From contig JAATGT010000183.1 in NCBI GenBank assembly GCA_015654525.1, forward strand, positions 25,705 to 89,704: 64,000 nt of DNA. Direction: 5' to 3'. A program made the translations under genes and the position numbers. Of the stretch, positions 5,397-58,407 are shown piece by piece. Each line of letters starts with the position of its first letter. Positions within the stretch are counted from its first letter, which is position 1. A model generated the notes under the pieces. The model worked only from the letters and a program-made list of their open reading frames with translations, was not told the origin of the DNA and ran no database searches. Source of the stretch: Bacteroidales bacterium (GTDB taxonomy: Bacteria > Bacteroidota > Bacteroidia > Bacteroidales > Paludibacteraceae).

Positions 5397-6026
5397 TCAC
5401 AACACATAACTTTTTATCACATCACTCCAGATACGGGCAGGGTCAGTACGCGCTGCGGCTATGCGAAAGCAGTATTCCTGTCCGCTAATCAGCCCTTCAA
5501 TAAGAATTTTTCGTCGGGAACTGGTCACTTGTATCCATACACTATCCGGTCTCTGCGGAGACAGGCAATATTCTACAACATAAAACAGCGCACGTTTTAC
5601 AACGTCGCAACTAATATACAGACTCCCTTTGGAATCGCCCACTTGCAGCTTCACGTTGGTGGGTCTTTCCAGCGGCCCTACACGCGAAGCCCTGAAATGC
5701 ACCGAAAAACCGGCACTATACACTATAGCTGCATTCCCTTTACAAGCTTGCTGGACATAGATGGACATATTTTGCAGACTATCCTCCAATTTCTTGCGCG
5801 CGTCTTTTTTGACTATCGTATCTACCCTCGATCTGTCCTGCAAATTGCTCACACACACTTCAAAGTCAGCAACATTGATCTTTAAGTCGGCAATTAAATC
5901 TGCCGCATTCGGAAAATTCGGATTATCAACCATCCTTTCCAATACCGAAGAAGCAAATAACGCCAGCTCAAGATCCTTGTATTTGGCCGGAGCAAAATTC
6001 TTTGACACAATAACTTTTCTTATCAT
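5397..6026 (-). CDS. Small protein with N-terminal helical region and C-terminal fibronectin type III-like domain
   Basis: 209 aa; C-terminus ...PTNVKLQVGDSKGSLYISCDVVKRALFYVVEY...LIEGLISGQEYCFRIAAARTDPARIWSDV is FN3-like. Confidence 0.6.
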   Translation of the reverse strand: MIRKVIVSKNFAPAKYKDLELALFASSVLERMVDNPNFPNAADLIADLKINVADFEVCVSNLQDRSRVDTIVKKDARKKLEDSLQNMSIYVQQACKGNAAIVYSAGFSVHFRASRVGPLERPTNVKLQVGDSKGSLYISCDVVKRALFYVVEYCLSPQRPDSVWIQVTSSRRKILIEGLISGQEYCFRIAAARTDPARIWSDVIKSYVL

Positions 6027-6073
6027 ACCAGTCCTATTTTAAGATTAAACCCTTCGATATAAAATTGATTCGT

Positions 6074-6520
6074 AAAACTAGACAAACAACGGATTGCTGA
6101 CACAAAACAGGGCAATCGTTTAGTTGAATACCCCTTTTGCCTGTTCTATTCCAGCATTATTTGAAACAAACCGGCTCTTATTGATCTAAAACAGGGCATT
6201 ATACTAAAATAATACGTCGTTCATGTACCATTCCGGTCTGTTAGTGTGAAACAATACGCAATCTTTCATATACAACAGCATATTATTCATAAATAATAAA
6301 TTATTTTTCATTATAAACAGAATATTTCTTATGAATAACAGAATAGAATGGATATAAAATAGCCTATTATTTTGAGAGAATAAAGCAAAAATTGAAAAGT
6401 ATGCTTCAGTGGTTGAAGCTAATACGGCAGAATAAACAGAAAAGGGTTGTATAGTGGAATGAAACAAAAGATTAGAAACAAAAGAGAAAGTATTACAGAT
6501 ACAAAACACAACCGAAAGGG
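6074..6520. repeat. Degenerate tandem array of ~21-bp units (array 1), about 20 units
   Basis: Consecutive 21-mers: TTCATATACAACAGCATATTA / TTCATAAATAATAAATTATTT / TTCATTATAAACAGAATATTT / CTTATGAATAACAGAATAGAA / TGGATATAAAATAGCCTATTA; occasional 18- and 24-mers. Confidence 0.75.
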
Positions 6521-6813
6521 AAAGAAAAAAGCCGTTTTAATCAACTAAATACGTAGAAGAATATAATTTTGATCTATAAAAATGCGCTTTACATCTCTTA
6601 AAAATTGAATGGATACCGCTTCTTTGCCATTTTCTCCGAATGTTTCTACATGTCAACGGACAAACACTTAACATCACCATTTTAGTTGCCAGAAATAAAT
6701 AACTTGTTTTTATACAAAATCGTTGTTGGCAATTTTTTGCAGAAGAAGTTATCAATATCCGGTAACCCCTTGTGGACAGGTCAAAAATTCGCGCTTCAGA
6801 GTACGCTATTTTC

Positions 6814-27192: not shown

Positions 27193-27230
27193 TTTCTTTT
27201 TAATCATTTACTACCTGTTAGCACTCGGGG

Positions 27231-27376
27231 GCGACTAAAACCCACTAATTAGTGGCATCAAGTCGCTAATTAGCGATAAAAGCTGCTCCGGAGCGACTGC
27301 AACCTGCTAATTAGTGGCAACAAGTCGCTAATTAGCGACTAAAGGTTACTCCGGAGCGACAATGAACCACTAATTT
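27231..27376. repeat. Tandem array of seven ~21-bp units with palindromic junctions (array 2)
   Basis: Units begin at 27231, 27252, 27273, 27293, 27314, 27335, 27356 (steps 21,21,20,21,21,21); palindromes GTCGCTAATTAGCGAC, CACTAATTAGTG, CTCCGGAG. Confidence 0.9.
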
Positions 27377-36355: not shown

Positions 36356-36500
36356 TTCTGAAATTTTCAAAAGCTTTGCGACGACTGTTTTTGCCTTTCT
36401 GAAAATTTCAAAAGCTTCCCAACGACCGTTTTGGTCCTTCTGAAATTTTCAGAAGCTTCGCGACGACTGTTTTAGTGTTTCTGAAAATTTCAAAAACACA
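36356..36500. repeat. Alternating 21+20-bp (41-bp period) direct-repeat array (array 3)
   Basis: TTCTGAAA/TTTTC cores start at 36356, 36397, 36438, 36479 (exactly 41 bp apart), alternating with TGCGACGACTGTTTTTGCC-type half-units. Confidence 0.9.
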
Positions 36501-36623: not shown

Positions 36624-37253
36624 ATGAACCTAAGTATTGACCAACTAAAATCCAAATTCCAACAACCATTGCCTGGTACAGCTTCACACCTGAAGTTGGC
36701 ACCACCAAACAGGGGCAAGGAGCTGTTGGAGAAACAAAACTATCTCCTTTCGGCCAGACAAAGTGCCGTAATGGTTCTGTTATACCCTGTCAACAATCAG
36801 CTTCGGACGGTATTTATTAAACGCAGCGAATACGATGGTATACACAGCGGTCAAATTGCTTTTCCGGGAGGGAAAAAGGAAAAAACTGATCAAAATTTTG
36901 AAGAAACAGCACTGCGGGAAACATGGGAAGAAGTAGGAATCAAATCCGATGAAATAGAGCTGATCGGGCAACTCTCCGACCTGTTTATACCACCAAGCAA
37001 CTTTATAGTGAAACCTTTCGTCGGATATTGTACAGGTCAACCGACATATAAGCTTGATCCGAGGGAAATTCAATCTGTAGTTGAAATAGATTTAGCTGAT
37101 TTTTACTCGGAAAACCGTATCTTTGAAAAAGAATTTAGTTCGGGGACATCCGGACAAGCGATCAAAGCACCATACTTTAACATTAGAAACATTGAAATAT
37201 GGGGAGCAACAGCTATGATAACAAGCGAGTTGTTGGATGTGTTAAAGTCTTAG
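36624..37253 (+). CDS. NUDIX CoA pyrophosphatase
   Basis: SGQIAFPGGKKEKTDQNFEETALRETWEEVGI NUDIX box. Confidence 0.9.
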   Translation: MNLSIDQLKSKFQQPLPGTASHLKLAPPNRGKELLEKQNYLLSARQSAVMVLLYPVNNQLRTVFIKRSEYDGIHSGQIAFPGGKKEKTDQNFEETALRETWEEVGIKSDEIELIGQLSDLFIPPSNFIVKPFVGYCTGQPTYKLDPREIQSVVEIDLADFYSENRIFEKEFSSGTSGQAIKAPYFNIRNIEIWGATAMITSELLDVLKS

Positions 37254-53401: not shown

Positions 53402-53473
53402 AATTTGATTTTAAATTTACGATTTCGGATTTACGATTACCGATTGCGGATTTATGATTTACGATTGCGGATG

Positions 53474-53839
53474 TTATGCTTTTTTCTGATTGATCCTATT
53501 TCGAACTGTATTAATGGAGGCAACTATTATTGCCAGTATCTCATTGGTTTCTTTTTTTATGGTTGCGGTTTTTTCAAAAGCAATTAGTCCGCTTTCTTCC
53601 AATACCTCCAACCAATAAATTGTTTCATCTGCTTCCTCTTCAACTATTTTCAGTTTATTGATGAAATCTGCATCCGATTTTGCTCTGCAAGCTGCCCTGT
53701 AGTTTGCCCCAATAGAAGTGGAACATCGTATAATTTGAGCAGCTATGGCTTTCGAAGACGTCTTTACGGGCAAATCATCAATAAGTCTGATGACCTCCAG
53801 CCCTATATTTTTTGTTCGTCTCTTTATTTCTTCTTTCAT
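53474..53839 (-). CDS. Four-helix bundle protein (S23/TIGR02436-like, Avd-related fold)
   Basis: AAQIIRCSTSIGANYRAACRAKSDADFINKLKIVEEEADETIYWLEVLEESGLI. Confidence 0.88.
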   Translation of the reverse strand: MKEEIKRRTKNIGLEVIRLIDDLPVKTSSKAIAAQIIRCSTSIGANYRAACRAKSDADFINKLKIVEEEADETIYWLEVLEESGLIAFEKTATIKKETNEILAIIVASINTVRNRINQKKA

Positions 53840-56548: not shown

Positions 56549-57214
56549 TCAACCTGCAATGATGGCACTTAGCGTAGTACTCCACGGACCATGTTCGCCG
56601 CGGGTATTTACCCATCGTAGCCAATAATAAGCCAGGATGTTTGCCTGCTTACCTTCATAATTGGTTATGTACGAATTGCCGGTAGATGTGCCCAGATAAG
56701 TAAGTTCGGAAACGTCTTTGGGCGCTTCGCCACCCAGTTTTACCCATACTTCACAACCATGCACTCCTGCGGGTTTAGCCTTGCTTTGAGGCGTAGCTTC
56801 GTCGCTAATGTGAATGGTGTGTTGCAAACGTACCCCAAAATCCAGCGTTCCCAATGGACTGGTAGCAGGCACAGCTGCAGGTGTACGTGTTTCCGACTTC
56901 ACCGTTAAGCCCATCTGGACGCGGTCGCTGTCGGTCACCTTACTGTTGTTTGCCAAAAACTCAGCCACGAAACTACGAATTTCTTTTTTGTAGTCAACCA
57001 GAGCATCGTTTTTAGCCTGCACATCAGCAGCCGTACGATTTTGTTTGTTACTCGCTTTGGAAAACGCATTGTCCCAAACGCCTTGTTTTGATTCCAGTGA
57101 TGTTGTAGCATCAGCACTGATTCCCCATGTGGTTTGTTTAGCTTTGACATTAGTCAGCAAGCCTTTCTGCCACAAATCAAATCCGGGGTCGGTAGATGGA
57201 ATATAGTCTGCCAT
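56549..57214 (-). CDS. Small protein with N-terminal helical region and C-terminal fibronectin type III-like domain
   Basis: 221 aa; C-terminus GCEVWVKLGGEAPKDVSELTYLGTSTGNSYITNYEGKQANILAYYWLRWVNTRGEHGPWSTTLSAIIAG. Confidence 0.65.
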   Translation of the reverse strand: MADYIPSTDPGFDLWQKGLLTNVKAKQTTWGISADATTSLESKQGVWDNAFSKASNKQNRTAADVQAKNDALVDYKKEIRSFVAEFLANNSKVTDSDRVQMGLTVKSETRTPAAVPATSPLGTLDFGVRLQHTIHISDEATPQSKAKPAGVHGCEVWVKLGGEAPKDVSELTYLGTSTGNSYITNYEGKQANILAYYWLRWVNTRGEHGPWSTTLSAIIAG

Positions 57215-57267: not shown

Positions 57268-57765
57268 CAGATCAGAAAAAGAGCTTTTTACTTTCGGCAT
57301 ATTAGAATAACTAAGAGGAAAGAAACTTTTTCCCTCTGGAGCAAAAAACTCTTTTCAGCATAATATTGCATATTGTCTGAGTAAAAAAGATCTTTGTTTT
57401 GTTAAATAATATATTCGCTTAAATCAAAAACTTTTTCACTTAGGCATGGATAAATCTAACTTGAGTCAAAATGAATCTGACTAAGGCGAATATAACACCG
57501 GTTTGAGCCAAAATGGATGTTGCTTAAGACATACATATTCAGCCCGGTGTACATTATCTTCGGATAAAGCGAAGAAGGTTTTGAACAAAATGGAAAAGGT
57601 TTTGGCTTAAGTGAAAAACAGATCAGCCTAAGTGGAACTGATTTTGAATGAAGTGAGATTATTTTTAAACCGAGCAAGAACCATTTTGGCTCTAGTTGGA
57701 AACTTATTTGCTTAAGCAAGGATGCTTTTTTATCGAAAAAAGAGGAATGATTCCAAGAAACAGCC
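57268..57765. repeat. Degenerate tandem array of ~21-bp units (array 4), about 24 units
   Basis: TTCACTTAGGCATGGATAAAT / CTAACTTGAGTCAAAATGAAT / CTGACTAAGGCGAATATAACA / CCGGTTTGAGCCAAAATGGAT / GTTGCTTAAGACATACATATT ... TGGCTTAAGTGAAAAACAGAT / CAGCCTAAGTGGAACTGATTT. Confidence 0.8.
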
Positions 57766-58407
57766 CTTTTGTTTATATATGAAATTTGGTATTTAAATAC
57801 TGATAAATAATTATTTAGCTTCGATGAAAAATGAGTAAGCGGGTGTAGTGACCGGGAAACAGAAAAAAATGAGCACAGAAGGGTTTTGCCCGATTGCCAA
57901 CAAGGGTCGACAAAGGCTTTGGAAATGAAATATGAACGATTAGGTGAGCCTACTGAAGGGCTACAAATAAAGGTTGAGTTCATTGGCAAACAACAACTGT
58001 GAAACCGACAGAAAAAGATAGTTAACGGGTACAAATATAGCAATTTATTTTTGATCAAAACAAGAATTTAATTGTGATATTTTTATGTTATAAAGCATAA
58101 AAATTAGCATCTACAAAAGAATTAAGCAGGGTTGAATAAGTTCTGCTCACAAAATAAAATTTGGGTTCTTTTAAATCAATAATTCTAACTCCTTTCCGAC
58201 CGTATAATGCATTCTGCTTCACAGATTTTCTGCCTCTCTAATTTATATTATTTGCAAAAGTGATAGCCAATACAGAATATTTCTATATTTTTGTCTGTAA
58301 GAATCAGAGGCCTTATTCTGGCATCGATTGGCTTTTCATGGCCGGATCTGTGCCGCGTTAATTCTTATTTATATACATGTACTATTAGCTCACTAAACTG
58401 TCAAACA

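Follow-up and report, generated by a model that had tools for sequence, protein, structure and literature searches.

Two-turn dyad-symmetric repeat arrays located 5' of FN3-type and DUF6261 orphan genes in Bacteroidota

Introduction

Plasmid-origin iterons and the repeats of centromeres like pSK41 parC, which is bound by ParR, consist of tandem units of about 20–22 bp (two helical turns) located beside a gene. Dimers bind these units side by side, and they often autoregulate. A tandem array in front of a small gene is also characteristic of the type III toxin-antitoxin systems, wherein the repeat length is about 34–48. Clustered palindromic repeats between genes are likewise known from REP/BIME elements and their RAYT transposases.

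The degenerate 21-bp array at 57268–57765 of the window (the whole 64-kb stretch of DNA that was analysed) can be compared with each of these systems. It shares with iterons and parC the tandem two-turn units with inverted half-sites. However, arrays of this kind are chromosomal and multi-copy, their unit is private to each paralogue, and the partner protein is a helix bundle plus a fibronectin type III (FN3) domain. There is no Rep, ParM, ParR or ParB-type gene among the window neighbours of the array, which include genes for DinB_2, PEP carboxylase, Band_7 and DUF4922. With ToxIN, CptIN and TenpIN the arrays share the position 5' of a small gene, lineage specificity and probably a single promoter reading both array and gene, but the unit is 21 bp, the dyads lack an RNA strand signature and the protein is not ToxN-like. 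The CRISPR or TIGR layout of conserved repeats and unique spacers is not seen, as the units are contiguous and have no spacers.

REP/BIME sequences resemble these arrays in being clustered palindromic repeats between genes, but the units described here are contiguous and private to their loci. A RAYT transposase was considered as the maker of the arrays and was rejected because genome G063 carries five array genes yet has no Y1_Tnp match; Y1_Tnp matches also occur in genomes devoid of arrays. Y1/RAYT-like genes are found beside two array loci (L071:1385-1837 and L151:5341-5928), although this is not general.

The arrays of the window

An initial annotation had described the array as about 24 contiguous 21-bp units that keep their period with very few indels, and this description holds. 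Autocorrelation of 57268–57765 gives a lag-21 self-match of 0.442, versus 0.279 for dinucleotide-shuffled sequences (z 7.7), and thus the peak survives the shuffling control. The values at lags 42, 63, 84 and 105 are likewise raised. A cyclic profile HMM lays out about 26 degenerate contiguous units on the minus strand, which is that of the gene, with one single-base gap near 57560. By this model the array extends from about 57770 in the direction of the start codon (57214). It is strongest at about 57388–57725 and is weak at both ends. Tandem Repeats Finder does not report the array because its copies are too dissimilar, and Rfam gives just two sub-threshold matches nearby, which we take as chance.

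The minus-strand consensus of the unit is TCTTTTTTACTTAAGCAAAAA, and it is dyad symmetric (z 4.9, p 0.0025). The CTTAAG core that had been pointed out from the sequence is the dyad axis, and each unit is therefore a pair of inverted half-sites. The A-tracts that were considered part of the same core are present in this array and missing from several others, for example CTTCGGGACTTTAGTCCGGTT.

A period-21 signal of this strength recurs in the window just once, at 5965–6665. The array located there (6040–6550, minus strand) is of the same class by periodicity and layout, and it is also degenerate and dyad symmetric (z 4.0, p 0.0025). It sits 5' of an FN3-like gene at 5397–6026 (minus strand).

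The gene that follows the first array (56549–57214, minus strand) encodes a 221-amino acid orphan protein, P0001, that has no match in Pfam or NCBIfam. An AlphaFold2 model built from 28 aligned sequences (pLDDT 90.6) predicts an N-terminal helix bundle followed by a beta-sandwich, and the best Foldseek matches of the model are FN3 domains (E 2.7e-5, probability 1.00). On the basis of this model, the C-terminal part can be assigned to the FN3 beta-sandwiches. The gene behind the second array encodes P0002, a 209-amino acid orphan protein whose model (pLDDT 95.8) has the same plan. The profile of its family finds FN3 chains in the PDB, and of the 43 sequences in its alignment, 11 match Pfam fn3. 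There is no significant sequence similarity between P0001 and P0002. A phage or plasmid origin was rejected, since no protein match was found for P0001 or P0002 in plasmid records or for P0002 in phage records, and two array motifs that were searched in viral contigs are absent from them.

Association of arrays with FN3-type genes

Relatives of both proteins were pooled from the genomes of the order and from GTDB contigs. They were found by profiles made from the first finds, and the boundary of the class is therefore uncertain. An array within 900 bp on the 5' side was found for 66 of the 78 testable relatives, which are Bacteroidota genes of at least 180 amino acids whose upstream sequence is long enough. 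An array is here a repeat with a period of 20 or 21 or multiples thereof (42 and 63). Only 5 of 82 have one on the 3' side. The corresponding figure for control ORFs, which are other ORFs of at least 250 amino acids, is 17 of 532, which should be taken as a maximum, as array genes adjoin some of these ORFs. A second, phylum-wide sample that played no part in finding the pattern has arrays at 13 of 18 genes. The pairing with an FN3-like orphan gene that the initial annotation had pointed out is thus a recurring one. Outside Bacteroidota an array was found at only one of seven relatives, L071, and this comes from a draft genome of Verrucomicrobia and may therefore be a contaminant.

The genome of the window carries more paralogues of both FN3 types, most of which have a 21-bp array directly 5'. 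Within the order the family is patchy: one type occurs in 5 of 148 genomes and the other in 18 of 148, the latter count including weak matches to large FN3 proteins. A period scan of 674 kb gave 10 strong matches at period 21, two of them coding, and 0–2 for each of the other periods from 15 to 30.

There is one P0002 relative (L085, G000:C245:7391-8014) that has several in-frame stops and lacks an upstream array. At this locus, array and gene seem to decay together.

The initial annotation knew of no description of arrays paired with FN3-like genes, and we found none in the open-licence literature. The recurring gene-plus-array unit, which occurs up to tens of times per genome in many Bacteroidota families, is apparently without annotation: there is no family model dedicated to the FN3 types, and a third family, discussed below, is a domain of unknown function (DUF). 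The initial annotation had also missed the dyad motif, the lineage-private motifs, the probable leader position and the arrays of the DUF6261 type. The arrays may in addition break assemblies: the genome of the window is a draft of 361 contigs, several of which end just past an array.

Unit architecture and inheritance of motifs

Of 68 arrays, 47 have a dyad-symmetric consensus when tested by column permutation, which alters dinucleotides (p<0.05; cut-offs were set within this analysis), versus 2 of 68 in a mirror-symmetry control. Since there are two axes per unit in a periodic dyad, the dyad axes recur every 10.5 bp, or once per helical turn, on one face of the DNA. Indels are nearly absent from the degenerate arrays.

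The units of paralogues are unrelated in sequence, yet their length is nearly always 21 bp. Three arrays (L035, L113 and L118, from genomes G094 and G039) have a period of 20 instead. Between orthologues the motif is usually kept at about 70% identity or more, and it is generally lost below 60%. For example, TATTCTnAnAGTTnGnGAATA is common to L003, L062, L064 and L066, within which group the unit correlation has z values of 5.9–9.4. The corresponding value for the window array and its counterpart L058 is 6.9.

Promoters and leader sequences

A candidate Bacteroidota promoter (CTTG, 21 bp, TATATTTG) is located at 58032–58064 (minus strand), outside the window array, from where it would read through the array to the gene, with a transcription start predicted near 58024 (minus strand). 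It was recognised by inspection, by a strict scan and by its counterpart at L058, so that at both loci a promoter of this type (TAnnTTTG with an upstream TTG) is predicted outside the array. Between promoter and array lies an outer leader (57766–58031, minus strand) that is partly homologous to that of L058, with about 70% identity over 138 bp by blastn and MAFFT alignment. The two loci are homologous right before the ATG and then again outside the array. In the L003 group, a terminator-like hairpin followed by TAnnTTTG is found just before the array. No k-mer common to the outer leaders was found.

In the 400 bp outside the arrays, the strict promoter form is matched 9 times in the sense and 3 times in the antisense orientation, versus 1.6 times in shuffled sequences. 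A scan across the whole upstream region shows no sense bias; the bias arose after restriction to 400 bp and to the strict form, and the promoter result is therefore partly post hoc. The position of the candidate promoter indicates that the window array is probably transcribed, and we consider it probable from these sequence features that at least some arrays are transcribed within a leader.

DUF6261 genes and a possible wider class

Genes for DUF6261 (PF19775) resemble the FN3-type genes in that they form a small multi-copy orphan family, almost all sampled members of which have a dyad array on their 5' side. The protein is helical, distinct from the FN3 types and without an FN3 match, and the period is 41–43 rather than 21. 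A strong repeat (z above 6) with a period of 41, 42 or 43 is present within 900 bp 5' of 27 of 29 genes, one of which (L233) qualifies only at the far end. The sample (L220-L249) was drawn from genomes G000, G029, G092 and others, and there are 22 copies in the genome of the window. Many of these units hold two dyads. The spectrum of their dyad centres has peaks at 20.7 and 10.45 bp, above those of column-permuted arrays. That the unit length differs while the two-turn dyad spacing is the same argues for B-DNA geometry. Only one passing mention of DUF6261 was found in the open-licence literature.

In a de novo scan of 1.33 Mb, 21-bp arrays were recovered next to small helical orphans of other kinds, next to DUF6261 genes, and also on their own. 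It is conceivable, though we would not yet count on it, that Bacteroidota hold a large undescribed class in which several small helix-bundle families (the FN3 types, DUF6261 and others) share a role, and in which each copy has a private two-turn dyad array, giving sets of orthogonal DNA–protein pairs per genome. If each array were read by its own protein, the number of such pairs in one genome would be unusual. The two-turn dyad arrays also offer a sequence handle on the function of DUF6261 and of the FN3 orphans.

Possible functions of the arrays

Our tentatively favoured reading, which seems to us about as apt to fail as to hold, is that the array is a cis-acting platform on which dimers occupy adjacent sites on a single DNA face in a sequence-specific manner and control the orphan gene. 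It is suggested by the pairing on the 5' side, the specificity of the period, the near absence of indels and the dyad symmetry, together with the 20.7- and 10.45-bp dyad spacing at DUF6261 genes, the tests described below that favour DNA over RNA, the kept motifs and the promoter outside the array. We infer that a protein acting as a dimer reads the sequence of the half-sites, with cooperative alignment of the dimers along a single face at one dimer for every two helical turns. Given its position in the leader, the array would, once occupied, obstruct or gate transcription of the gene. This position is compatible with a role as DNA, since dimers bound there can block elongation. The inheritance of a lineage-own motif with the gene suggests a cognate pair. 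Perhaps most simply this would be autoregulation, wherein the binder is the encoded protein itself or a co-evolving partner.

Several observations count against such a platform. The array is absent from 12 testable Bacteroidota genes, promoters were found for a minority of arrays only, and three arrays have a period of 20. Strong 21-bp arrays also stand without a recognised orphan gene (L202:5659-6387, L203:1303-1953, L186:14145-14689, L201:4078-4642 and L141:10453-11078). Furthermore, the encoded proteins, with a median pI of 6.8 and a net charge of about zero, are close to neutral. No DNA-binding fold is recognised in them, and the fold search gives FN3 only.

Alternatively, the array might act as RNA, in the form of a row of hairpins in the transcribed leader that is bound by the encoded protein or serves as an RNA antitoxin, in the manner of type III systems. 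The candidate promoter and the ToxIN-like arrangement of lineage-private cognate repeats 5' of a small gene point in this direction, and the predicted folds of the arrays are more stable than those of column-permuted controls (z -2.3). However, the antisense strand folds equally well (z -2.29 for sense and -2.28 for antisense, p 0.52). RNA hairpins predict more G-U than A-C mismatches, and no such excess exists: G-T and A-C mismatches number 709 and 836, versus 704 and 835 in shuffles, and well-paired columns have 211 G-U versus 248 A-C. Moreover, neither the fixed 21-bp pitch nor the dyad spacing at DUF6261 genes would be explained, and the encoded proteins are not ToxN-like, since FN3 is essentially all that the fold search and Pfam return. 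We therefore regard a function as RNA as unlikely.

Another possibility is that shape rather than sequence matters, such that any two-turn palindrome array would serve a general nucleoid or cruciform-binding protein and the sequences drift freely. This would accommodate the unrelated motifs of paralogues. It would also suit a few arrays (L109, L106, L018, L050, L059 and L119) that mix two or three palindromes with covarying arms, a pattern that fits recognition of structure better than recognition of a single half-site. In the most degenerate arrays, however, including that of the window, the half-site arms do not covary (109 observed versus 105 expected in the window array), and each half-site is apparently held to the consensus independently. 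Orthologous arrays, although internally degenerate, mostly keep their motif as well. A purely shape-based role thus appears doubtful, and we read most arrays as candidate sites for sequence-specific recognition of double-stranded DNA, for which the mixed-palindrome minority remains a difficulty.

The arrays could also be a functionless product of slippage and template switching at a mutational hotspot 5' of these genes. Several arrays have homogenised centres and frayed ends, and units turn over between paralogues, as such an origin would lead one to expect. It does not fit a 21-bp period that is fixed across unrelated sequences, degenerate arrays that are nearly free of indels, or a constant side of the gene in many families, and we consider it improbable.

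Intrinsically curved DNA and side-by-side protein binding had both been offered as explanations of the two-turn period. Protein binding fits the dyad symmetry. Curvature through phased A-tracts agrees with the A-tracts of the window array and with a predicted bend above that of column-permuted arrays, but the effect is weak (mean z 0.58 over 61 arrays, z>1.64 in 23%, and 1.4 for the window array). It does not predict dyad symmetry, and several arrays lack A-tracts. As the explanation, curvature seems very unlikely, and it would be at most a small component.

That the array codes for a heptad-repeat peptide (21 bp being seven codons) was rejected as highly implausible: a frame is open in 54 of 64 arrays versus 45 expected, but no frame runs open through either window array, where in-frame stops close it, through any of the three period-20 arrays or through certain others, and conservation has no three-base periodicity (mean z -0.14), a signal that was seen in one of two coding controls. 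Two other 21-bp arrays do lie inside large genes (L147:1314-1952 and L153:1490-1738) and apparently code for coiled-coil heptads, which makes such genes a source of false positives for any period-21 scan.

Other repeats in the window

A short solitary array at 27223–27375, with no strand assigned, was detected by Tandem Repeats Finder, by the period scan and in the sequence itself. It lies between convergent genes and has no adjacent FN3 gene. Its 62–63-bp higher-order unit holds three palindromes, with a spacing of 21 bp from centre to centre (counted by hand), and it shows in miniature the two-turn dyad spacing in another unit length.

There are two further short repeats in the window. One comprises 3.4 copies of a period-41 repeat at 36356–36495, located 5' of a NUDIX gene (36624–37253, plus strand). 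The other is a short 21/14/7-bp repeat at 53407–53472, located 3' of a gene for a 23S rRNA intervening-sequence protein (53474–53839, minus strand).
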